Translations under genes and position numbers: made by a program
The notes under the pieces: model-generated
The model's database searches: none
Seen by the model: only the letters and a program-made list of their open reading frames with translations
Told to the model about the DNA's origin: nothing
From: Mayamaea pseudoterrestris
Lineage: Eukaryota > Bacillariophyta > Bacillariophyceae > Sellaphorales > Sellaphoraceae
Length of the DNA stretch: 64,000 nucleotides
Assembly: GCA_027923505.1 (NCBI GenBank)
Contig: BROI01000026.1
Coordinates: 1-64,000, forward strand
Reading direction: 5' to 3'
In this document: one piece after another, positions 6,001-62,098 of the stretch
Numbering within the stretch: the stretch's first letter is position 1
Layout of the letters: every line of letters begins with the position of its first letter

Positions 6001-8857
6001 AGATCCAATAACTTGGTGGATCTGCCAGCAGTGCACCTCAGCTGGTATACAGACTGCCAGAATGGCCTGCAGACCCAAGAATATTGAAACCAAAGTACAT
6101 ATGATACAATTGGACCAATAGTCATCTCAATTGTGGTGTGGAACGCAGCATTGTGCCATGAGACTCCGCACATTCAACAAGTTGTTGAATGTGCTAGCAG
6201 TGCATCATGCTTTGGCTACAGGATCATCCGCCTTGCCTGCTAAGCCATCCAACCCCTTTCCTATGATGTTGGTTGACATTTTGAGCCAATGCTGGGGTGA
6301 CTATCACCCCAATATTCACCAGCCTGGCTGCCATGGTGAGACTCGGCACATCCAATAACTTGTTGGATCTGCCAGCAGTGCACCTCAGCTGGTACACAGA
6401 CTGCCAGAATGGCCTGCAGACCCAAGAATATTGTAACCAAAGTACATATGATACAATTGGACCAATAGTCATCTCAATTGTGGTGTGGAACGCAGCATTG
6501 TGCCATGAGACTCCGCACATTCAACAAGTTGTTGAATGTGCTAGCAGTGCACCATGCTTTGGCTACAGGATCATCCGCCTTGCCTGCTAAGCCATCCAGC
6601 CTGTTTCCTTTGATGTTGGTTGACATTTGGAGCCAAGGCAGGGGTGACTATCACCCCATAATCCACCAGCCTGGCTGCCATGGTGAGACTCGGCACATCC
6701 AATAACTTGTTGGATCTGCCAGCGGTGCACATCGGCTGGCACACAGACCACCAGAATGGCCTGCAGACCCAAGAATATTGAAACCAAAGTACATATGATA
6801 CAATTGGACCAATAGTCATGTCAATTCTGGTGTGGATCGCAGCATTGTGCCATGAGACTCCGCACATTCAACAAGTTGTTGAATGTGCTAGCAGTGCACC
6901 ATGCTTTGGCTACAGGATCATCCGCCTTGCCTGCTAAGCCATCCAACCCCTTTCCTATGATGTTGGTTGACATATTGAGCCATAGCTAGGGTGACTATCA
7001 CCCCAATATTCACCAGCCTGGCTGCCATGGTGAGACTCGGCACATCCAATAACTTGTTGGATCTGCCAGCGGTGCACCTCGGCTGGTACACAGACCGCCA
7101 GAATGGCCTGCAGACCCAAGAATATTGAAACCAAAGTACATATGATACAATTGGACCAATAGTCATGTCAATTGTGGTGTGGAACATTGCATTGTGCCAT
7201 GAGACTCCACACATTCAACAAGTTGTTGAATGTGCTAGCAGTGCATCATGCTTTGGCTACAGGATCATCCGCCTTGCCTGCTAAGCAATCCAGCCTGTTT
7301 CCTATGATGTTGGTTGACATATTGAGCCATAGCTAGGGTGACTATCACCCCAATATTCACCAGCCTGGCTGCCATGGTGAGACTCGGCACATCCAATAAC
7401 TTGTTGGATCTGCCAGCGGTGCACCTCGGCTGGTACACAGACTGCCAGAATGGCCTGCAGACCCAAGAATATTGAAACCAAAGTACATATGATACATTTG
7501 GACCAATAGTCATCTCAATTGTGGGGCGGAACATTGCATTGTGCCATGAGACTCCGCACATTCAACAAGTTGTTGAATGTGCTAGCAGTGCACCATGCTT
7601 TGGCTACAGGATCATCCGCCTTGCCTGCTAAGCCATCCAACCCCTTTCCTATGATGTTGGTTGACATATTGAGCCATAGCTAGGGTGACTATCACCCCAA
7701 TATTCACCAGCCTGGCTGCCATGGTGAGACTCGGCACATCCAATAACTTGTTGGATCTGCCAGCGGTGCACCTCAGCTGGTACACAGACTGCCAGAATGG
7801 CCTGCAGACCCAAGAATATTGAAACCAAAGTACATATGATACAATTGGACCAATAGTCATCTCAATTGTGGGGCGGAACATTGCATTGTGCCATGAGACT
7901 CCACATGTTCAACAAGTTGTTGAATGTGCTAGCAGTGCACCATGCTTTGGCTACAGGATCATCCGCCTTGCCTGCTAAGCCATCCAGCCTGTTTGCTTTG
8001 ATGTTGGTTGACATTTTGATCCAAAGTTGGGGTGACTATCACCCCAATATCCAAAAGCCTGTCTGCCATGGTGAGACTCAGCACATCCAATAACTTGTTG
8101 GATCTGCCAGCAGTGCACCTCAACTGGTACACAGACTGCCAGAATAACCTGCAGACCCAAGAATATTGAAACCAAAGTACATTTGATACAATTGGACCAA
8201 TAGTCATCTCAATTGTGGGGTGGAACATTGCCGACTCGCACATTCAACAATTGGATCACCATTGGAATGTGCTAGCTATGCACCATGCTTTGGCTACAGG
8301 ATCATCCGCCTTGCCTGCTAAGCCATCCAACCCCTTCTTATGATGTTGCTTGACATATTGAGCCAAAGTTGGGGGGACTATCAGACCAATATCCAAAAGC
8401 CTGTCTGCCATGGTGAGACTCGGCACATCCAATAACTTGTTGGATCTGCCAGTGGTGCACCTAGGCTGGTACACAGACCACCAGAATGGCCTGCAGACCC
8501 AAGAATATTGAAACCAAAATACATGATACAATTGGACCAATAGTCTTGTCAATTCTGGTGTGGAACGCAGCATTGTGCCATGAGACTCCGCACATTCAAC
8601 AAGTTGTTGAATGTGCTAGCAGTGCATCATGCTTTGGCTACAGGATCATCCGCCTTGCCTGCTAAGCAATCCAGCCTGTTTCCTTCGATGTTGGTTAACA
8701 TTTTGAGCCAATGCTGGGGTGACTATCACCCCAATAAAATCCAGCCTGGCTGCCATGGTGAGACTCGGCAGAACCAATAACTTGTTGGATCTGCCAGCGG
8801 TGCACCTCGGCTGGTATTTATACACAGACTGTCAGAATGGCCTGCAGTCCCAAAATA
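1..8857. repeat. 347-bp satellite array (about 25 copies, open at left edge)
   Basis: Near-identical monomers recur every 347 bp, for example the successive units around 5877, 6224, 6571, 6918 and 7265. Some are truncated (junctions near 910, 2055, 2713, 5322) and one is scrambled at 4840-4975. Each monomer has three inverted repeats: a 27-nt perfect palindrome (13-bp arms GCACATTCAACAA around a central G, e.g. 301-327), a GGGTGA-CTA-TCACCC element, and an imperfect palindrome ATCCAATAACTTGTTGGAT. A higher-order duplication of about 653 bp (one full plus one truncated monomer) is visible between 2050 and 3300. The minus strand of most full monomers is open for 98 codons, but 347 is not a multiple of 3 and I treat this as incidental. 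Confidence 0.97.
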
Positions 8858-9289: not shown

Positions 9290-12200
9290 ATGAAAGTGTC
9301 TCTTGCTATACTGTTTACGCTGGTGACTGCCTCCTCGGTTGGTTTCAGCAGCAGCAGTCGTCGTCCACTTCAGCAACGACGGAACGACAACCAGAAACCA
9401 TTCTGGAATACACCAATCACAGACTCATCAATATCAGCAAGAATACCAAAGTCAGCATTATATATTGGCATGAGTTATCTTGAGACACTCAAGACGAATG
9501 AAGAAGGCGACAGCAATCAACGCTCCAGCAACAACGACCGCTACAAGGCGCCAAGCGTCGACGTTGGTTCCTCCAACGACTACTTGAGCGCACTGGCAGC
9601 TTCGCAAAAGAGTGCATCATCGTCCAAGCCAAAGACAGTTTCCTCCGGATCACCTGCTGGCGACTACCTTGGTGCCATGTCGTCGCCGAAGACGAATGGG
9701 AGCAATAACGATGGAGGCAGCGGCAGTGGCAGCAAGTTACAGCGCGTGCTTAGTTTCATTGGCAAGACGGGCATTGCGAGCACGGAATCAAATGAAACAC
9801 CAAAGTCGTCGCCTGCCGCGAGGGACGACTACTTTCGATCCATGTCGTCGTCGTCGCAGCAATCAACAACGGCAAGCGAGTCGTCGTCCAACGAGTCTGC
9901 TTCCGCCAACAAAAGGCAGCAGCAGCAACGATCCGATGACCCAGGCAAGTTTAAACGAGTGCTTGGCTATCTTGGCAACAAGATGAAGGCTGCCTATGAC
10001 TATTCCAGTGACGAAGAAGCCGGTGAAAAGGACATGAATGGACTATCGGCAACCTTTCCTTCGACTCGCTCGAGCAGGTCATCCGCGTTGGAACCAAGCA
10101 ACGACAAGACTGACTCGAATTCGCGGTTGTCCTCGTCGGTGCTAACATCACCTTCGACTGACTATGTCACTGCCATGTCGGGGGGATCTTCTTCGGCGGC
10201 AGGGTCCGAAGCAAAACCAGCGCCAGCCGCAGCATCCTACTCTGGCTTTCCCGGTGCGGCTTGGAGCCCTGGTGGAGGTGGTGGTGGCGGCGGCGGTAGC
10301 AATGATGCCAGCAATTCACACTCGTCAAAAAGCAGCGACAACAAGTCAACGGAACCAAAGGCATCATCGTCATACTCTGGCTTTCCTGGTGCGGCCTGGA
10401 GTCCTGGCGCATCAACAACCTCCAATTCAGTATCGTCATCGAGCAGCAGCAGCAAGTCAACTTCGTCAACGGCACCAAAAAAGTCGTCCTACTCTGGCTT
10501 TCCGGGTGCAGCCTGGAATCCTGGTGCAAGTGGCGGCGATGAAACTTCGAGTGAGCAAGCTTCGTCGGGTAGCCAAGGTTACGAGTCAACGTCGTCAGCA
10601 GCAAATGAACCAAAGAAGGCTTCCTACTCTGGCTTTCCAGGATCGGCGTGGAACCCAGGAAGTGGTGGAGATTCATCTGGCTCCAATGGCGTTAACAGCA
10701 ACGGTACGCCCTCCTCGTCGTCAACGAAAGAAGCGGAAAAGGCATCTTATTCTGGCTTTCCAGGATCGGCGTGGAGTCCTGGCGGCGGTGGTGATGCATC
10801 TCATTCTGGGACATCATCGTCCAAAAGTGATAGCAAATACGGTTTAACATTGTCACCGTCAACTGATTCGAAGAAAAATTCATATTCTGGGTTCCCCGGT
10901 GCGGCTTGGAGCCCCAATACCGCCGGTAATGTACCGAGTTCCGCGGACACGTACAAACCGCCAGTCGACCGCAGCAGCTACAATGCAGGGTCGTCCTCAG
11001 CAAGCCACCCGGCTAAGGCATCCTATTCGAAGCCAGGATCCGACTGGAGCCAGAACCAACCAAGCTCCTTTGCACCATCAATGGAGGACAGCCGCAGTAG
11101 CTACAGCTCTACAACCATGCCTTTAAACGATATAAAGCAAACAGCATCGTATTCTGGATTGCCTGGCTCGGATTGGGCGCCGGATGCATCGAACTCTGAG
11201 GCTTCAACAGTTGACAACAGCCGCAATAGCTATAGCACTGCACCCAAATCTACGTCGTCCTACTCTGGATTCCCCGGCTCGGCTTGGAGTCCAGGTTCCT
11301 CAACCTCGTCAACTCCTGCGGTAGACAACAGCCGCAGCGGCTACAGTGCTGAATCCACACAATCACGCGATATAAAAGACACATCATACTCTGGATTTCC
11401 TGGCTCGACTTGGAGCCCAGGTGATTTAGGCTCGTCGAGCACAACAGATCAAGTTTCGGCGAAAGGCAGTTACAATTCAGCAGCAAAGTCATCGGCCAAT
11501 CAATCAAAGTCAGCCTCTTATTCCGGATTTCCTGGCTCAACTTGGAGTCCTGGTAGCAGTTCATCTAGCTCAAATCAAGAATCAGTGCATGACGAAAGCA
11601 AGGAAAAGTTGTCACCGCCATCACAGGCGTCGTATTCGGGTTTTCCTGGCGCCGCTTGGAGTTTTGGCGGTACTATTAATGCAGGTAGTCAAGACGTGCC
11701 GAGCAACAAAATTGGTCAAGAAGGATCATCTACATACTCTGGATTCCCTGGATCTTCTTGGTCTCCTGCTCACGGCAACGGCAGTTCGGGTTCCACACAG
11801 CAATCTTCTGGATCAAAAAAAGCTGCACTGTCGCAACCATCGAAGCCGTCGTATTCTGGCTTTCCTGGGGCTGCTTGGAGTTCTGGGAATGCGTCAAATT
11901 CTAGGAATGACGGTCGCGAACGTCGGAACGATGTTGTTGATCAGTCTTCCGCTCGTATTCCATCGTGGGTTTCAAATGATCGCCAACCCCTGGAGAAAGA
12001 CAGAACAAATCAGAACTTATCAAGTCTTGATACGCAGGGACCGGTATGGAACGCATCTCCGAAAAGTGTACCAAGCCATGGCAAGTTGGCGCATTCTCTA
12101 AACGTTCCAGACACGAAACACTACTTTTCGGGTTTTCTTGAAGAATTATCTGGTGAAGACTCGTCAAGTGAATATGACCAACGAGAAAAGCTGCCATCTG

Positions 12201-13729
12201 CAGAGAAACAATCGTCATCAAATGTTGTTTCTAAAAATACCTCTTTTTCTGGATTCCTTGACGATCTGTCGTCCGATTCCAGGGCTTCGAAATCGCACAA
12301 TTCACGGAGCAGCCATACGAAGGAGAAAGTAGCTAGAGATTCACGGACAGCTTCGTCTGCTACTCAGCCAGAATCATACGTTAGCGGCAACACTTTCGCT
12401 ACAAATCCAGTTGCCACTCCTTCTCCATCTCCTTCGTCAAGCAACTGGTTTACACCGTCGGCAGATTCAGATCCTAACTTATCTATAGAAAGAAGCGTTG
12501 GCATGGCCCCTTTGGTCAGAACTCCTTTGGTCCGTGAAGATCCGTATGTTGACGAGCAACTTGAAACTGCGATTATCGCGCTTCAGCACGAAATTGAACG
12601 ACTTTCAGATCAGCTTGCAGCACAAGGTGACGATATACAATCTCTGTTAATTCTCGGACGTAGTATGCGAGAGCAAGATGAAGATTATCGAGAGCAGGAA
12701 AACATTCGGCAACAAGAGAGGTTTGATGGAATGCACCGAGAGCTTGAAGGTCTTACCGGGCGCCTGGCACTACTGGAAGAAATCCAGCTAGAGTCTGAGC
12801 GCATAAAAGAAAGTATTGAAAATGTTGTCGACGCAAGCGATACGAAGATGCTAAACATGAATATATATGATTCACCGTCACCCAATGACGTACTCTATTT
12901 GAATGTTGGTGGCATGCCACTCGATGTCTTGCGAGGGACGCTGACATTCTTCCCCGACTCAATGCTGGCTCAAGAGTTTAGTGGGGAATGGGACGAAAGA
13001 CTCGTAAAAGACCATGAAGGTCGATTCATGGTCAACGAAGACCCAGAACTATTTGCCGAACTTGTCAACTACTTGCGCGATCAAGGCCGACGAGCAGATG
13101 ATAGGTTTATTGACCCACCAGGATTTAAGAACATCAATCAGCAGCAACGATTTCACCGGCTAGTTGATTCCTATGAATTGACAAAACATATGTATCGTTT
13201 CTCCGTTTGCACTGTCAGAGAAGATCCCCTTCCCGTCTCTTATCCAATATCAAATGCTCTGCTCATACCTGTAACAAACGACGAGGCCGATTTAAAGGAT
13301 TTTGTCTTGCAGCGAGATGGCAAGCATGCACGTAACGTCGATTCATTTGAGGTCGAGCTGGGAAGGGATACGTGTGGAGCCGTTGGGTGGTCAATATATG
13401 ACACGGATCGATTTGATGGATTCTGCTTTGACAACGAAGATCGCGTCGTTTTGGCAATTCTCTACATCTATCGGACTGGTCTGCAAGAGTCAATCTCTTT
13501 CCGTTTGGGAGATGTTACCCAAAGCATACCTACGAACGCGATAATTCGCGACAATGAGCCTGTACGGATCCGATGCGCTAATCGAGGTACCGAGTGGTAT
13601 GTCAACGATGTCCTGGTAGCGACAACGCCAGCAGTTCATCGAGCCTTAAGTTACAAGGTTGATGCAGCACCGTACGTGTCTTGCACCAAAGGGTCGATCT
13701 GCTTTACAGATCTTACGCTGGTTGCCTAG
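9290..13729 (+). CDS. signal-peptide protein with 14 YSGFPG-WSP repeats, coiled coil and T1/BTB-like domain
   Basis: 1479 aa. The ATG at 9290 is preferred over an upstream alternative because it gives a signal peptide (MKVSLAILFTLVTASSVG) followed by F, a plastid-import-like context. Residues 60-295 carry five Y-[LFV]-x-x-[LM] motifs (SYLETL, DYLSAL, DYLGAM, DYFRSM, DYVTAM). Residues about 316-866 carry 14 repeats of SYSGFPG[AS]xWSPG every 36-48 residues in Ser/Gly/Asn-rich disordered sequence: 12 exact YSGFPG cores plus YSGLPG and YSKPG variants. Two later variants read FSGFLEEL and FSGFLDDL. A coiled coil spans about 1088-1180. A K+-channel-tetramerisation-like (T1/BTB) domain begins near 1199 (VLYLNVGGMPLDVLRGTL). 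A C-terminal globular domain (about 1300-1479) is unrecognised. Stickers plus an oligomeriser suggest a condensate scaffold. The WSP core recalls the PYCO1 Rubisco-linker motif KWSP, so a pyrenoid role is my inference. No intron is needed. Confidence 0.9.
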   Translation: MKVSLAILFTLVTASSVGFSSSSRRPLQQRRNDNQKPFWNTPITDSSISARIPKSALYIGMSYLETLKTNEEGDSNQRSSNNDRYKAPSVDVGSSNDYLSALAASQKSASSSKPKTVSSGSPAGDYLGAMSSPKTNGSNNDGGSGSGSKLQRVLSFIGKTGIASTESNETPKSSPAARDDYFRSMSSSSQQSTTASESSSNESASANKRQQQQRSDDPGKFKRVLGYLGNKMKAAYDYSSDEEAGEKDMNGLSATFPSTRSSRSSALEPSNDKTDSNSRLSSSVLTSPSTDYVTAMSGGSSSAAGSEAKPAPAAASYSGFPGAAWSPGGGGGGGGGSNDASNSHSSKSSDNKSTEPKASSSYSGFPGAAWSPGASTTSNSVSSSSSSSKSTSSTAPKKSSYSGFPGAAWNPGASGGDETSSEQASSGSQGYESTSSAANEPKKASYSGFPGSAWNPGSGGDSSGSNGVNSNGTPSSSSTKEAEKASYSGFPGSAWSPGGGGDASHSGTSSSKSDSKYGLTLSPSTDSKKNSYSGFPGAAWSPNTAGNVPSSADTYKPPVDRSSYNAGSSSASHPAKASYSKPGSDWSQNQPSSFAPSMEDSRSSYSSTTMPLNDIKQTASYSGLPGSDWAPDASNSEASTVDNSRNSYSTAPKSTSSYSGFPGSAWSPGSSTSSTPAVDNSRSGYSAESTQSRDIKDTSYSGFPGSTWSPGDLGSSSTTDQVSAKGSYNSAAKSSANQSKSASYSGFPGSTWSPGSSSSSSNQESVHDESKEKLSPPSQASYSGFPGAAWSFGGTINAGSQDVPSNKIGQEGSSTYSGFPGSSWSPAHGNGSSGSTQQSSGSKKAALSQPSKPSYSGFPGAAWSSGNASNSRNDGRERRNDVVDQSSARIPSWVSNDRQPLEKDRTNQNLSSLDTQGPVWNASPKSVPSHGKLAHSLNVPDTKHYFSGFLEELSGEDSSSEYDQREKLPSAEKQSSSNVVSKNTSFSGFLDDLSSDSRASKSHNSRSSHTKEKVARDSRTASSATQPESYVSGNTFATNPVATPSPSPSSSNWFTPSADSDPNLSIERSVGMAPLVRTPLVREDPYVDEQLETAIIALQHEIERLSDQLAAQGDDIQSLLILGRSMREQDEDYREQENIRQQERFDGMHRELEGLTGRLALLEEIQLESERIKESIENVVDASDTKMLNMNIYDSPSPNDVLYLNVGGMPLDVLRGTLTFFPDSMLAQEFSGEWDERLVKDHEGRFMVNEDPELFAELVNYLRDQGRRADDRFIDPPGFKNINQQQRFHRLVDSYELTKHMYRFSVCTVREDPLPVSYPISNALLIPVTNDEADLKDFVLQRDGKHARNVDSFEVELGRDTCGAVGWSIYDTDRFDGFCFDNEDRVVLAILYIYRTGLQESISFRLGDVTQSIPTNAIIRDNEPVRIRCANRGTEWYVNDVLVATTPAVHRALSYKVDAAPYVSCTKGSICFTDLTLVA

Positions 13730-46251: not shown

Positions 46252-49200
46252 ATGAGGCGCCACATCACACCTTTTACGTTGCTCATCTTGTTGACGCATT
46301 GTTCACTGATCGAGTCGTTTAGTACAGTCTCGTCCTTGTATTTGGATCAAATTGCTGCCATAACACGACGAAGAAATTACGAAGGAGCAACAGCTGCAGC
46401 AGCCGATGCTCGAACGAAACAATCTGAACGAGACGTACGAAACAGCATGGAGGAGACTCAAGCACGATTCGAAACGACAAAGACTGCAACAGATTATGAT
46501 GATGCATCCATGAAGAGACCACCACTGGCTCTATTGTCTACGAAACCACTTGGTCCCCGGCAATACTGGGGTGCAGCAGCACCTCGGCAGTCGACAGCCG
46601 CAACAATGACTACCGACAACGTTGCCGGACGACTGGAAGGCGACCATCCCATGACTCCCCGACGGCAAGAAAAGGAGTTGGCGTCACGATACGATATCTT
46701 CAAGCGGCGCAACGCAATGAAAGCAGCCGGCTATCTTGGTTCCATTTCCAACCATGGGGGCAAGCACTCGCCCAAGGCAATTTATGCGCCAACAATGTTA
46801 GGGAAACGACGCTATCGGATCATTCAATCGAATGGCTTTTTGGATCAACTTGCAGCAACAAACGTAGTGCAGTCGGTGTCAACGAGTGATAACGATGGTG
46901 CAGCAATGGCTGATGTGGAGGCGGAGGCATTGCCACTGCCAGCGACGCGAGTTGCACCCGCAACAATGATTGGCGATGCAGCACCAAACATGCATGTCAG
47001 CGACGAGTTGCATCTGGATATAGACTCAGCAATCAAGTATACACAAGAGGCGCCGTTCAGTGGTACTACAGAGGCAGCTGTTTCGGAACAATGGTCTGCC
47101 GAGACGTTTCCTTGGAACGAGTTTCGAGTCAATCTTCGAGTGCGGCAACCTCCAAGCCAAGCGCCACATGCAACATCAATGGTTGTCAACAAGACGACAG
47201 AAGCAGTCACCTTGCATGATCTCCAGCATTTTCCAACTCGGGTTCGACCATCGCAACGGGTGGTCAGACGAAACATAACTGCGGCGGATGAAAGTGGTGA
47301 AACGGACATTGAGGCAGCAGGAGTAAAACCAGCCAATACCGACTCAGCCGCAACCGTAAAAGCCTTGCCGGAATTTAAAGTCAATGTCCGGACCAGAGCG
47401 TCAACGAGACGAGTCGGAACCACTGACGTGTCCAGTAACAGTGGAGCTGCAATGCTGGCGAGCAAGCAAAACGTGCTGGCCAGAAATGCATCGATGGCTA
47501 TCTTGCCGGCTTTCAAAGTTGGCATCCGCGCCAGACATGTGTATGCGGAACGTGTCAATCAACAGATTATACTTGCTTCAAATGTCACTAACTCTACGGC
47601 GTCGATAACGACGAAACTGATAGAGTTGTCCGCAAGCACGGCCAATATGGCGACGTTCAAAGTCGGTGTCCGCGCCAGAACATCAAAATTGAAGAGTGAC
47701 GAGGCTTTGAATCTTACCGAATCGAATGACGCTGACAGCGCATCAACTCAAAAGACGCGGCAATCAGCGTCTTTGTCGGAGCTCGGCTCATTGTACACGC
47801 TACCTGCATTCAAAGTGGGTCTGCGTGTCAGAGCATCGAAAGCAATCACACATCAATCGAATGCAACGACCGTCTCGCAAGCTCGAGGTAGCACTGTTGA
47901 TGAGAAAGGGCTTTACAACTCATTACGAGAGTTTACGGTCGGAATCAGACAGTTGCGGGTGGTCGACAAGATTGTTCCCGTGGCTCATGATTTGCAGTTG
48001 TCTCATGCTCAAGAAAGTGTCGCGCCATTTAGAGAACGAATCACTAACATTGCTACCGACGCAAACACTCTTGTGAATGTTCCTTCAACTTATATTTCGC
48101 ATGCATCGACGGATGACGACAGAGATGGCAAGGAATCGAATGTTGCAAGCGCAATGCATACCATTCAGCAATCCACGGAAATTGATGACACTCTTGCACA
48201 ATTTGTTGCAAACGCTGCTACGAATCCGTTGCACAATGACCAAACAGTAGATAAACCATTGCCGAACGACTTTGCTTCTCTGAAATTGAGTAGCAATCCT
48301 GTTAAAAGCTTGGAGATGAGGAATGTCGACGTCGCTAATTCGCCAGTGGCGTTTAAGCTTGCTGATGCTGCGTCAGGTTTCGACGTTGGAACGATGCAAC
48401 AAAGGGAGGATGTATCTGACTGTGTTGGTCAACGCGCGACAGACGGCTTAGTTGAGAAAACAATGGACGACGAGGCATTTGGATTGCCCATCCAATCAAT
48501 CTACGACGCAGATAATGACATACGGCAGAGGAATGACGCCGCGAATGGCGTTTATACAGCAAGTCCGAAGATGGCGCATATCACAGCTGAAACACAAGCA
48601 GCCGACACTGCTTTTGATAGCGCATCCAATTCAGATAGTCGTCATCATCAGCTGGCTGAGCATGAGCTCGATAGGCCAACTGGATTTCGTAAGTCAATGG
48701 AAGCACAACCAACAACGTCAGTTGCCATTCCACTTAATTTCAACGTACATGACCATGTTGGATGGAGTTTGCCCGCGCCGCATTTTGATGATCAAGCGAG
48801 CGTACATATTAACGGTTGTCGAGAGGTGATATCTGCAACGCAGAAAATTAAAATCAAACACGAAATTAGTGTTTTCAGTGAGCCGAGAAATGATGATTCA
48901 ATGAAGCCAAAGAATGACGTTTGTTCAATGATGCCATTTAACGAAGCACCGTAACCGTCCTTCCGAACAGCGACAACCAATAAGAACAGACTACTGGACG
49001 AAGAGGGTATAGAGAAAATAAGGGTCATCAATCCGCAGTCGCCAGCAATCCCGGCGACTACGTGTGCCCTTCGCGATTCTTCAGTAAACATACACGATCC
49101 TTTTCCAAGGCGAGCGTATGACGAATGGTCTGACAGTCCAGTCATTCTATCGCGTGCTGATTCTGCATCAAGTTTTTTAGAAACAGTTACCGACGATATT

Positions 49201-50156
49201 TATAACAGTCAAGGTGGAGCAATAAAAAAGGTCGACCGCTTGGTACGTAACTGCTAGATGATAAATAGGAAGAAGATAACAATTTACTTACCTCGTAATA
49301 TTTCACACGACAGATGCAGCTGGAGGAGCGACTACGAAAGCTAGAGCAGCGGGGGTTAGCGGAGTCGTTGATAATACCTCGCGTCTCGTCTCCAAATGGT
49401 ATGCAAATGGCCAGAGGGAGCTTGATTACAGAAAAGATAGCCGGAGCAGCAACACCATCCGTTGCGATTGCTGGTAAGTGTACAAAACTGGAGGTTCATG
49501 GAGGATCCTTGAAGACATGGTCATACGCACATCCTTCTGTCAAGCGCATTCATGTTGTCTTGATGACTGAAGGCCGACCGCTTCATGCAGATGTCGCCTT
49601 GTGGCAGGGACCAAGTAACACGCCATGTAAAATGCGTATCTTTTGCGAAGATGGAGCCGAGCGCCCATTCAGCACCGTAATTGAGACCCCAAACAGTCCA
49701 AACACGATTAGCATTCGCAATTCCGGCAATGTGGAGCTCCCCTTGTCAGCTCAAGTCCTTGCTGAAGACGTAGGTAACCTTTCTTCGCTGCCGTCTTTCC
49801 CAAACTGCGATTTGGAAGTTGATCCAGTAACCATACAAGGTGGAGCGGTCCGCACATATCCTTTTGAAACGATTGTTGAAAGCGTCCAAATTGTTTTACA
49901 GTCCGATGGACGCCCCTTGTACGCCCAGATTGAGATTTTACAAGGACCAAGCAGCAATAAGCAAGTTGTGGATGTTTATACGGAAGATGGAACCACTCGT
50001 CCATTCTTCATGGTGGTAGAGACCCCAGGAAATGGAAATGCGGTTCGTATTGTCAACTCTGGCAGCATCGAATTTCCATTCGTTGCGAGTGTACAACCAT
50101 TTACATTTGGAATACTATCGTCGTCAATTGAACCCGTTATTGGTGGCGACTGGTGA
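46252..50156 (+). CDS. signal-peptide protein: disordered region with six FKVGxRxR motifs, coiled coil and tandem shell-like domain
   Basis: Proposed exons 46252-48877, 48971-49242 and 49314-50156, giving 1246 aa. Intron 1 (93 nt, GTGAGC...ACAG) removes the in-frame TAA at 48952 and keeps the frame. Intron 2 (71 nt, GTACGT...ACAG) is phase 0. Signal peptide MRRHITPFTLLILLTHCSLI-ES followed by F. Early motifs SLYLDQIAAI, GYLGSIS and GFLDQLAA. Stickers near residues 290, 374, 420, 468, 520 and 560: EFRVNLRVR, EFKVNVRTR, AFKVGIRAR, TFKVGVRAR, AFKVGLRVR, EFTVGIRQL. After the coiled coil (VDRL-MQLEERLRKLEQ) come two similar domains of about 100 aa (GGSLKTW / GGAVRTY; EGRPLHADVALWQGP / DGRPLYAQIEILQGP; EDGAERPF / EDGTTRPF; ETP; NSG). 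The same tandem occurs at 60298-61726. I infer a PyShell-like pyrenoid protein. Splitting into two genes is the alternative. Confidence 0.72.
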
Positions 50157-50599: not shown

Positions 50600-51770
50600 A
50601 ACTCCTAAGTCCCATCCACAGAAGCTGGCTCCGAACCAGGCCTAAGACAATACATTGATAGCTGGCAGTTGGCAGGAATTGTTTCATGCTGTTAAAAAAT
50701 GCAATGCAGTCATCACTAGCCAATGCAGTCTCCAATATCTGCCAGTAGGACTGCCAGAATTTTGTGGCCTCAGGCTTCTCCGCAGTAGCTGGCTGCCATG
50801 ACTCACTCCAACAACCAGAAAGGTATACACTGATAGCTGGCAGTTTGCAGGCATTGTTTTATGATGTAGAAAGTGCAATGCATTCATTACAAGCCTATCT
50901 AGTCTCCAAGTTCAAACACAGGGACTGCCTCAATTTGGTGGCCCCAGGCTTGTCCACAGTCGGTGACTGCCATAACCCACTCCAATGACCAGAGAGGTAT
51001 ACATTGACAGCTGGCAGTTGACAGGCATTGTTTCATGATGTAGAAAGTGCAATGCATTCATCACTAGCCCATGCAGTCTCCAAGTTCTGCCAGTGGGACT
51101 GCCAGAATTTGGTGGCCCCAGGCTTGTTTACAGTCAGTGACTGCCACGACCCACTCCAACAGCCCTAGAGGTGTACATTGACAGCTGGCAGTTGACAGGC
51201 ATTGTTTCATGACGAAGAAAGTGCAATGCATTCATCACTAGCCCATGCCGTCTCCAAGTTCTGCCAGTAAGACTGCCAAAATTCTGTGGCCCCAGGCTTG
51301 TCCACAGTTGGTGGCTACCATGACCCTCTCCAACAGCCAGAGACATATACATTGATAGTGGCAGTTGACAGGCATTGTTTCATTATGTAGACAGTGCAAT
51401 GCATTCATCACCAGCCCATGCAGTCTCCAAGTTTACCCACAGGGACTGCCTCAATTTGGTGGCCCCAGTCTTGTTTACAGCTGGTGACAGCCATAACCCA
51501 CTCAAACGGCCAGAGAGGTATAACTTGATAGCTAGCAGCTGACAGGCATTGTTTTATGATGTAGACAGTGCAATGCATTCATCACCAGCCCATGCAGTCT
51601 CCAAGTTTAACCACAGGGACTGCCAGAATTCTGTGGCCCCAGGCTTGTTTACAGTCAGTGACTGCCATAACCCACTCCAATGGCCAGAGAGGTATAACTT
51701 GATAGCTAGCAGTTAACAGGCATTGTTTCATGATGTAGAAAGTGCAATGCATTCATCATTAGCCCATGGG
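50600..51770. repeat. 174-bp satellite array (about 7 copies)
   Basis: Copies recur at 174-176 bp, marked by the block GATAGCTGGCAG or GACAGCTGGCAG near 50657, 50831, 51006, 51180, 51354, 51529 and 51704. The consensus includes TGACAGGCATTGTTTCATGA, GTGCAATGCATTCATCAC, and GGACTGCCAGAATT before GTGGCCCCAGGCTTG. Divergence between copies is higher than in the two large arrays. It joins the 181-bp array directly. Confidence 0.93.
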
Positions 51771-60297: not shown

Positions 60298-61726
60298 TTA
60301 CCACTGCTTGACAAAGCCATCGTCACCTCCAATCACTGGCTCGGTGGGCGAGTAGCCCGACGCTCCCACCACAAACGGTTCCACCCAAGCCGTCAATGGA
60401 AACTCCACCGTCGCACTGTTCACGACGCGCACAACGTTACCACTGCCAGGCGTCTCAATCACCAAGTAGCATGGTCGGTCCATGCCATCCTCCGTGTACA
60501 CTTCCATGACTTGCTTGTTGTTGTTAGGGCCTTGCAGCAACTCGATGCGAGCATTCAACGGACGACCATCCGTCGTGAGCAAAATCTGAACACTGTCGAC
60601 CGACGGATCAAACGGATACGTCTTGAGCGCTCCACCTTGAATCGTCTGCGGCGGTCCCTGGAGCGGATTGGATCGCGCCGATGGAACGTCCGACTCTTCA
60701 TCCGTCTCCGCCAGTACGTGCGCCGCGAGTGGAAACTCCAACTGGCCCGTGTTGCGAATCTGAATCGTGTTGGGGCTGCGAGGAGTCTCCATGACGGCCG
60801 TGAATGGACGAACGGCGCCATCTTCCACGTAGACGCGCATCTGAAAGTGAGGAAAAAGGAGTGAAGTAGAATGAGAATGCTGAATGAAAATGACCATGCG
60901 CGAGAGAGATGATGCAACCAAAGGTTCATGTGTTTTTGATCGTCACTCTCAACACTTTCATACGCAACTTCCCCAAACTGATCACTCATCGTACCTTGTG
61001 CGGCGTATTATCTGGTCCCTGCCAAAGACTAATATCGGCATCAAGTGGTCGTCCATCCGTTTTCAGGCAAACATGAATGCGCGTAATGGATGGACTCGCA
61101 AAGGACCATGTTTTGAGCGAGCCTCCCTGCACTAGTAGCTTGGGTGACTTTGTCGCAATCATGTTGGAGGGATTCTGTGGCTCGCGCGAGGAACTAACGT
61201 TAATGGCGTTGGAGCCGCGGTCACTGCCGCGACTGCTGCTGCCAGGCAACTGCTGGGTTTTGGGGCTACTGCCCATTTTGGCATTTTCCTGCTCGAGCTG
61301 GTTCAAGCGTTCCTCCAAGCGGCGCTGTGCAAAGGAAATTGTAGAAGTGATGAATAGGAGATGATTGTGAGAAGAGACGTCGAGTATAAGATGAAAGATT
61401 ACAATCAAGCATCGTATCGAAGAATAGATTCGCCAGTCATCCTCAAAAGCTGTCACATCACATTCTATATACAGTAATACACTCACAGTCCTATCTTCAT
61501 CCGCTCGTCTCGCAAAAAAGTCCTTTGGATTCTTTGGCTGCTGCTGGTCGTCACTGTTTTGCTGCGGCGTGTTTCCCAAATCTTCCCCTCCGAGGCTGGA
61601 CAAGTAGGACCGCAGCTGCTGGTGGCAGTGCTTGGTCGGCTGCTGCTGATGCGTAATCATGAATGCGCTTGCTGACGACGATGCCGTCAAAACGCACAAG
61701 AGGGAGAGTTTCGTAAACGTCTTCAT
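60298..61726 (-). CDS. plastid-targeted tandem-domain (PyShell-like) protein
   Basis: Exons 61726-61487, 61324-60995 and 60840-60298, 370 aa. Introns 162 bp (GTGAGT...GCACAG) and 154 bp (GTACGA...TTTCAG), both phase 0. The signal peptide MKTFTKLSLLCVLTASSSAS ends in the textbook diatom plastid motif ASA-F. RSYLSSLGGEDLG follows at about residue 40. A coiled coil (RRLEERLNQLEQENAKM) precedes two similar domains: GGSLKTWSF...DGRPLDADISLWQGP...EDGAVRPF and GGALKTYPF...DGRPLNARIELLQGP...EDGMDRPC, each ending ETP...N[TS]. The intron positions before the coiled coil and the alignment to 49314-50156 show a common ancestor. The duplicated domain, plastid targeting and size fit the diatom pyrenoid shell class as I understand it. 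I cannot run the search that would prove it. Confidence 0.82.
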
Positions 61727-62098
61727 CTTGCTATAGCTATTGCGTATAGTGAGGAGAGACTCTGCTTGTGGCTGCACCTCAACTTGATTCGAAAATTTGA
61801 AATTCGTTGGATCGTGTCATGGTGTCGGATCGGGTGGAGGCAGCTGGCGGAAGATTTCGGCGATTTTTGTCGTACCGGTTATACGCAATTAAAGCTGCGT
61901 TGGTGAGGCATAAGTACGAAACGAGTGCCAGTGAAAGCTACGTCATATGGCAATATTACGAAACGAGTGCCAGTGAAAACTACGTCATACAGCAATAGTA
62001 CGAAACGGGTGCCAGTGAAAAGTGCGTCATGAGGCAATATAACGAAACGAGTGCCAGTGAAAACTGCGTCACCTCTAAGTAAGCCTTTTTGATTCGTC
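61727..62098. promoter_or_regulatory. divergent promoter region between shell-like gene and proteasome beta7 gene
   Basis: 372 bp of shared 5' flank, almost half of it occupied by the 42-bp minisatellite listed next. Confidence 0.6.
61915..62082. repeat. 42-bp minisatellite, 4 copies, each with a CRE/CCRE-like site
   Basis: Units start at 61915, 61957, 61999 and 62041 (exact 42-bp period), sharing ACGAAACGAGTGCCAGTGAA. Each unit holds a bZIP-type site at the same offset: ACGTCA at 61940-61945 and 61982-61987, GCGTCA at 62024-62029 and 62066-62071. On the other strand these read TGACGT and TGACGC, the CCRE1 and CCRE3 hexamers described for Phaeodactylum CO2/cAMP control. Confidence 0.9.

Follow-up and report, generated by a model that had tools for sequence, protein, structure and literature searches.

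In the alpha-carboxysomes of bacteria, a single chain, CsoS2, links Rubisco-binding repeats to the shell; CsoS2 binds the shell and is not a shell protein itself. In Chlamydomonas, SAGA1 and SAGA2 are proposed to link the pyrenoid matrix to starch via motifs also present in EPYC1, according to passages of a review (PMC10473226). In diatoms the PyShell family itself is already known, and the passages of two reviews considered here (PMC13159521, PMC10473226) name no diatom tether between pyrenoid matrix and protein shell. Here we describe a gene of the diatom Mayamaea pseudoterrestris (order Sellaphorales, family Sellaphoraceae) that joins a PyShell domain to a long N-terminal arm bearing repeated short motifs, and that may encode such a tether. 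The gene occupies 46252-50156 (+) of the window, the first 64,000 nucleotides of contig C26 (BROI01000026.1) in a genome assembly of 41 contigs and 30.6 Mb. Its product is the deposited protein MPSEU_000985900 (1183 residues), hereafter P0003.

Joining exons 46252-48688, 48971-49242 and 49314-50156 yields a translation identical to deposited P0003. The initial annotation had proposed a single fused gene with a sticker-bearing region ahead of a shell-like tandem domain; its coordinates were correct, and the splicing could not be seen from the list of open reading frames (ORFs) on which it drew. One fused gene is supported by the deposited protein, by the lack of an in-frame ATG between the TAA ending at 48954 and intron 2 (48955-49242), and by the same layout in a second Mayamaea protein, P0004. 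The protein seems to begin in the style of diatom plastid proteins, with a putative signal peptide and then F (LIES followed by F at about residues 22-24, by eye). The features of the gene are:

46252..48688 (+): exon 1, residues 1-812 plus one base; putative signal peptide and plastid-type presequence, then the long arm
46552..46569 (+): GPRQYW motif, residues 101-106; same class in two further proteins, P0007 and C26_64k, and three times at a locus on contig C4
46729..46848 (+): weak YLxxL...YAP...GFLxxL unit, residues 160-199; 5.3-5.5 bits, with 0/1000 and 10/20,000 shuffles as high
47122..47139 (+): sticker motif 1, FRVNLR
47374..47391 (+): sticker motif 2, FKVNVR
47512..47529 (+): sticker motif 3, FKVGIR
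47656..47673 (+): sticker motif 4, FKVGVR
47809..47826 (+): sticker motif 5, FKVGLR
47932..47949 (+): sticker motif 6, FTVGIR, inside SLREFTVGIR
48689..48970 (+): intron 1, 282 nt, GTAAGT...ACAG, taken from the deposited annotation (P0003 skips it)
48971..49242 (+): exon 2, end of the arm and start of the coiled coil, without an in-frame ATG
49165..49367 (+): predicted coiled-coil helix, residues 878-921, split by intron 2
49243..49313 (+): phase-0 intron 2 of 71 nt, immediately upstream of the coiled coil
49314..50156 (+): exon 3, end of the coiled coil, PyShell domain and C-terminal EPVIGGDW
49485..50099 (+): PyShell domain (PF25192), residues 961-1165

A first splice guess, an intron at 48951-49022, was discarded because the deposited protein shows 48689-48970. 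If intron 1 were retained, the frame would stay open to the TAA at 48952-48954 and give an arm-only product without the shell domain, a possible alternative form.

The tandem domain is a PyShell domain by three tests, including a profile match and a structural match. The PF25192 profile scores 258.4 bits against P0003 (curated cut-off 27), and the P0003 model, aligned with VIA-align to the helical-tube structure of TpPyShell1 (PDB 8wqp), has the TpPyShell1 fold, with 53% identity over 214 residues. P0003 also keeps 98 of the 118 residues that are invariant among six other Mayamaea paralogues and TpPyShell1. These results bear out the suggestion in the initial annotation that the tandem domain is of the pyrenoid shell family. 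The domain occurs as well in the second gene of the window that the annotation had named:

60298..61726 (-): compact paralogue of the PyShell family, read by eye as three exons

P0003 has the tandem beta-sandwich domain and most invariant residues in common with TpPyShell1 (DiatomPyrShell); what sets the Mayamaea protein apart is its motif-bearing arm of about 870 residues.

Within the arm, F-[KRT]-V-[GN]-[VIL]-R occurs six times between residues 291 and 566, starting at residues 291, 375, 421, 469, 520 and 561. Six motifs spaced 40-84 residues had been noted at these places beforehand, and they are indeed there, far above shuffle expectation: in 20,000 shuffles of residues 24-900 the strict motif occurred 0.00045 times on average and at most once. 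F, V and R are invariant across all six copies, their third codon positions agree in only 0.40, 0.40 and 0.13 of pairs, and among the pairwise differences in the six motif codons 38 are synonymous and 29 are not. The flanking sequences show no relation to one another apart from an R at +2 after the motif (in 0.67 of pairs) and, at -3 before it, a leucine (0.40). Fixed F, V and R with free third positions and unrelated flanks point to a motif kept in a drifting chain, not to a recent DNA duplication. The spacings (84, 46, 48, 51 and 41 residues) fall within the 20-120 residues used as a linker criterion in the part of the EPYC1/CsLinker study considered here (PMC11570498). P0003 resembles those linkers in the spacing of its elements and in a chain mostly without confident predicted structure, and differs in the overall isoelectric point (pI) of its arm, 6.1.

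We consider it an even call that P0003 is a plastid-targeted, long-arm PyShell acting as a shell-to-matrix adaptor. Its C-terminal PyShell domain would co-assemble in, or cap, the pyrenoid protein shell, the coiled coil might pair molecules, and the N-terminal arm of about 870 residues would extend into the matrix, where it should be long enough to pass several Rubiscos. The arm may contact Rubisco, or a scaffold condensing Rubisco, weakly and at many points through short motifs; the candidate binding elements are the six F-x-V-[GN]-[VIL]-R copies, the one GPRQYW and the one YLxxL/YAP unit. What the data themselves show is a single deposited gene model, membership in the PyShell family with its fold, repeated and constrained motifs, elements held in common with other long proteins, and an architecture that recurs in P0004 and P0007. 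We infer the plastid targeting, the incorporation into the shell, the direction of the arm and its binding partner.

Such a role would resemble that of CsoS2, by analogy only, in that a single chain joins Rubisco-binding repeats with a shell. SAGA1 and SAGA2 are similarly proposed to join matrix and sheath by pairing Rubisco-binding motifs with a sheath-binding part; their sheath consists of starch, to which a starch-binding domain anchors them (passages of PMC10473226), whereas P0003, as a shell protein, would be its own anchor, and the likeness is one of function, not of descent. PYCO1, the Rubisco linker of Phaeodactylum, resembles P0003 in carrying a short aromatic and basic motif several times over in a presumed plastid protein; it differs in its KWSPR/Q and GTGYNP motifs and its pI of 10.03. 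The passages of the PYCO1 paper considered here describe no shell domain and state that BLAST detected no homologue in any other genome (PMC10288592). The KWSPR/Q sticker is absent from P0003 by eye, and a PYCO1-like KWSPxGG DNA pattern has 0 matches genome-wide. The looser KWxP pattern (350 matches versus 197 for its control) is too loose to use; among the matches listed, the first 100 of 350, a cluster of three lies on contig C3 in an ordinary-looking gene (by eye). We did not find the long-arm PyShell form in the literature searched, which left the primary PyShell papers (Cell 2024) outside, so that a prior mention is possible.

Some arm elements turn up again in further long proteins of this alga. 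A repeat protein with 16 detected units, C21r, adjoins the compact PyShell gene of contig C21 on the opposite strand. A genome search with C21r returned two further repeat proteins, C1r on contig C1 and C33r on contig C33, the latter about 11 kb, centre to centre, from the P0004 gene; PDB sequence searches with C33r and C1r gave no meaningful match. Homology to C1r led in turn to C26_64k, at the end of the window:

L012 1465-4494 (-): large tandem-repeat protein, 16 detected units
L045 2347-6168 (+): large tandem-repeat protein, 11 detected units
L046 2305-8352 (-): large tandem-repeat protein, 16 detected units
63722 (+) to contig position 70597 (L052 1-6795, +): C26_64k, about 2290 residues

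The repeat unit has a consensus of roughly [GS]DYLSxMSG...KKSYAPGGG.[FWM]K[VP]VKESGYLxNL. A hidden Markov model (HMM) of the unit, built from 43 copies (38 distinct) in C21r, C1r and C33r and including no PyShell sequence, scores 26.1 bits on P0004, with 0/1000 shuffles as high. The weak unit of P0003 was matched at a second attempt, obtained only after the C1r and C33r units had been added. Among 186 real ORFs of >=150 residues in the window and loci L012-L038 (with the P0004 gene present twice), scores of >=5 bits came only from PyShell genes and C21r. A half-unit, SYLSSLG, is present in compact PyShells, with 0/1000 shuffles as high for the C13 and C26 proteins, 4/1000 for C21 and 39/1000 for C2_1944k. 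The unit is not carried by the other PyShell arms: the HMM found no match in P0005 and P0008, its scores for P0006, P0007 and P0009 did not exceed those of shuffles (P 0.07, 0.41 and 0.24), and P0010 gave a P value of 0.015.

Two further motif classes link P0003 (GPRQYW, SLREFTVGIR) with P0007 (GPKQYW, SLREFRSGPK) and C26_64k (RPKQYW, NLREFSAGPK). Ten family sequences (11,921 residues) contain 56 SYxP, 6 PxxYW, 6 LxxF and 77 YLxxL matches, against 0, 0, 0 and 3 in 102 background ORFs (31,061 residues); the corresponding counts are 0, 1, 4 and 2 for P0003 and 0, 1, 1 and 0 for P0007. The patterns were written after the sequences had been seen, so these counts describe the set and do not test it. 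F[KR]P was tried as a further mark of the set and rejected, with 4 background matches versus 6 in the family. Genome-wide, the P[KR]QYW DNA pattern has 58 matches versus 7 for its control; among the 45 looked at, two are on C26 (P0003 and C26_64k), two are at the C4 locus, and 41 are the identical 15-mer CCAAAACAATACTGG, apparently a piece of a dispersed repeat. Of four arm genes found independently of position, two have a PyShell gene less than 15 kb away (chance probability 7e-4, 11 places counted, with the 15 kb limit set afterwards).

The recurrence of arm elements in other long proteins favours a network role, and P0003 may be a strap between the CO2-fixing core and its coat. More tentatively, raphid diatoms may build their pyrenoid with a shared short-motif code comprising the YLxxL/YAP unit, [GR]P[KR][QR]YW, L[RP][EA]FxxGx[KR] and perhaps AWSPGG. 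Large scaffolds would carry many copies and PyShell N-termini few, long-arm PyShells with an enlarged first exon would serve as shell-matrix adaptors, and several of the genes would be clustered.

Several observations weigh against a matrix-binding arm of this kind. The FKVxxR DNA pattern has 32 matches genome-wide versus 31 for its reversed control, and its cluster (4 within the P0003 gene) is unique to that gene, with at most two matches per gene-sized stretch elsewhere. In 16 of the 28 other matches (15 stretches) we found no further cluster, only six ORF segments of at least 60 residues with the motif once each. As the cluster has no counterpart in the genome, that motif does not imply a Rubisco site in common with other proteins. 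The LREFxxG DNA pattern, with 9 matches versus 6 in the control (two of the nine being P0003 and C26_64k), is barely above control, and together with the unmatched KWSPxGG pattern we count these results against a universal sticker. In the pattern scan exact SYxP is absent from P0003, and both YLxxL and SYxP from P0007; the motif classes, like the 15 kb limit, were defined partly post hoc; and the first unit HMM, built from C21r alone, gave P0003 -1.6 bits, with shuffles reaching 3.6. No relatives of the arm appeared among 8000 candidates scored. Of the pI values, the 10.6 of the sticker segment (residues 281-575) speaks for the adaptor; the next 320 residues have 4.5, and the 6.1 of the whole arm is unlike PYCO1 (10.03 in the passages of PMC10288592 considered here). 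FoldIndex classes 40% of arm windows as unfolded, no more, and AlphaFold2 (AF2) predicts helices inside the arm at residues 7-77 (predicted local distance difference test [pLDDT] up to 86, beginning in the signal peptide) and 138-159 (pLDDT about 73). Counting for the adaptor instead, the AF2 model has pLDDT <50 across residues 237-751, containing all six motifs, and for 865 of the 1183 residues of P0003, although the alignment behind the arm was extremely shallow. The arm is probably mostly floppy and not plainly disordered throughout. The coiled coil that the initial annotation placed after the motifs appears in the model as the helix at residues 878-921, confident only at about residues 901-918 (pLDDT >60 only at about 901-920).

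Some of these features would suit a different partner. As a strand, F-K-V-G-V-R-x-R, in which hydrophobic and basic residues alternate, is amphipathic and might rest against a membrane or extend a beta-sandwich by one strand; no second F-K-V cluster was seen in the genome; and the arms of P0005 and P0008 resemble coiled coil by eye, so that arms need not have one common partner. P0003 could then be a real long-arm PyShell whose arm binds another target, for example pyrenoid thylakoid membranes or another shell layer. We think this somewhat unlikely, since the arm also has elements that are abundant in long repeat proteins, and docking of the motif stretch on the shell domain is unsupported in the full-length AF2 model (pLDDT <50, itself weak evidence).

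The diversity of the family bears on whether the arm has a partner at all. A genome search for relatives gave 18 matches at 12 places (our own count): the P0003 gene, the compact gene at 60-61 kb, C21, C13, C2 (three), C33, C9 (two), C19 (a divergent gene) and C1 (a decayed copy). In searches for PyShells among long proteins, 7 of 2270 and 5 of 1426 candidates matched, amounting to eight distinct proteins, including P0005, a long PyShell known elsewhere as a transcript-derived protein (MMETSP label). In a tree of 17 rows, from which one C9 copy and the C19 gene were left out, P0003, P0004, P0007 (1040 residues) and the C1 copy group together (support 96/92), and the long PyShells P0005, P0006, P0008 and P0009 are placed outside this group; with 8 of 14 inner branches open, the tree is coarse. 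The C1 copy (L019, about 6690-7130, +) is a decayed version of the P0003 shell domain without a detectable arm, the arm search having given one match only. The label "long" requires 5 changes on the tree, at least 3 of them forced, and 210 of 500 shuffles were as low; long arms seem to have arisen more than once, and they differ greatly among long PyShells. Such variation and scatter would fit a shell paralogue in which the arm served mainly for spacing or size control and bound no particular partner, its motifs being relics of drift or low-complexity expansion. We regard this as improbable, given that all six copies retain F, V and R despite free third positions, and that P0007 carries GPKQYW and then SLREF in the same order as P0003 (the BLAST matches between pieces of the two arms are weak by themselves, E 0.10 and 7.7).

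Gene structure suggests how a shell-to-matrix adaptor could have acquired its arm. P0004 (C33, 907 residues) has one 581-residue exon, a phase-0 intron, and then the coiled coil and shell domain; intron 2 of the P0003 gene is likewise in phase 0, no more than about three codons from this position, and an intron of the compact gene at 60298-61726 falls at the same place as intron 2 (by eye). In the compact paralogues on C26, C21, C13 and C2_1944k a short presequence exon precedes the one for the coiled coil (four starts read, by eye). The shared layout and phase-0 intron make the arm look like an enlarged first exon, not a random merger. They also speak against a gene-model artefact, either two separate genes or a decaying one. 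The in-frame TAA at 48952-48954, an intron 1 known from the deposited model only, and the existence of a decayed copy on C1 would fit that explanation, which we judge very improbable in view of the missing ATG, the layout of P0004, the presequence exons of the compact paralogues and the 98 of 118 invariant residues retained. Least credible is a plastid protein outside the pyrenoid, such as a scaffold of the girdle lamellae or the stroma that had recruited a PyShell domain, as the domain, although drifted at 20 of 118 invariant positions, still fits the TpPyShell1 helical tube.

If P0003 is a true tether, it provides a gene, motifs to mutate and partner proteins to pull down, as well as a fusion that could be used directly to engineer pyrenoids with a shell. 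Candidate diatom linkers are also offered by C26_64k and the repeat proteins, which share its elements, and by a further protein of the window, P0011. P0011 and the C4 locus have these features:

9290..13729 (+): P0011, with SYSGFPGxAWSPG tandem repeats, four YLxxL, a BTB_2 domain and an unnamed C-terminal domain
C4 locus L053, 786000-791000: two frames that overlap and carry unit-like pieces, three [GR]P[KR][QR]YW and, by eye, a stretch resembling coiled coil

C26_64k carries SYLSSLSG, SYAP units, RPKQYW and NLREFSAGPK. Its N-terminal motifs are PyShell-like and its C-terminal part resembles an FAD oxidoreductase (by eye), with no Pfam match at 0.01. BLASTP of P0003 against C26_64k gave nothing significant (best E 0.13), and three weak pieces coincide with the shared elements. 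Since it was the P[KR]QYW pattern that led to the C4 locus, two of its motif copies are there by design; its two frames are possibly one spliced gene. P0011 is a possible matrix scaffold, and its C-terminal domain is common to C33r (2e-29) and, by eye, C26_64k. The AWSPG DNA pattern has 45 matches genome-wide versus 25 in the control, four of them in P0011, whose WSP-G core recalls the PYCO1 sticker KWSPRGGS (in the passages of PMC10288592 considered here), a likeness of motif without shown homology. Finally, local tandem-looking repeats are visible by eye at 50600-51500, downstream of the fused gene, and at 61900-62080, upstream of the compact gene.

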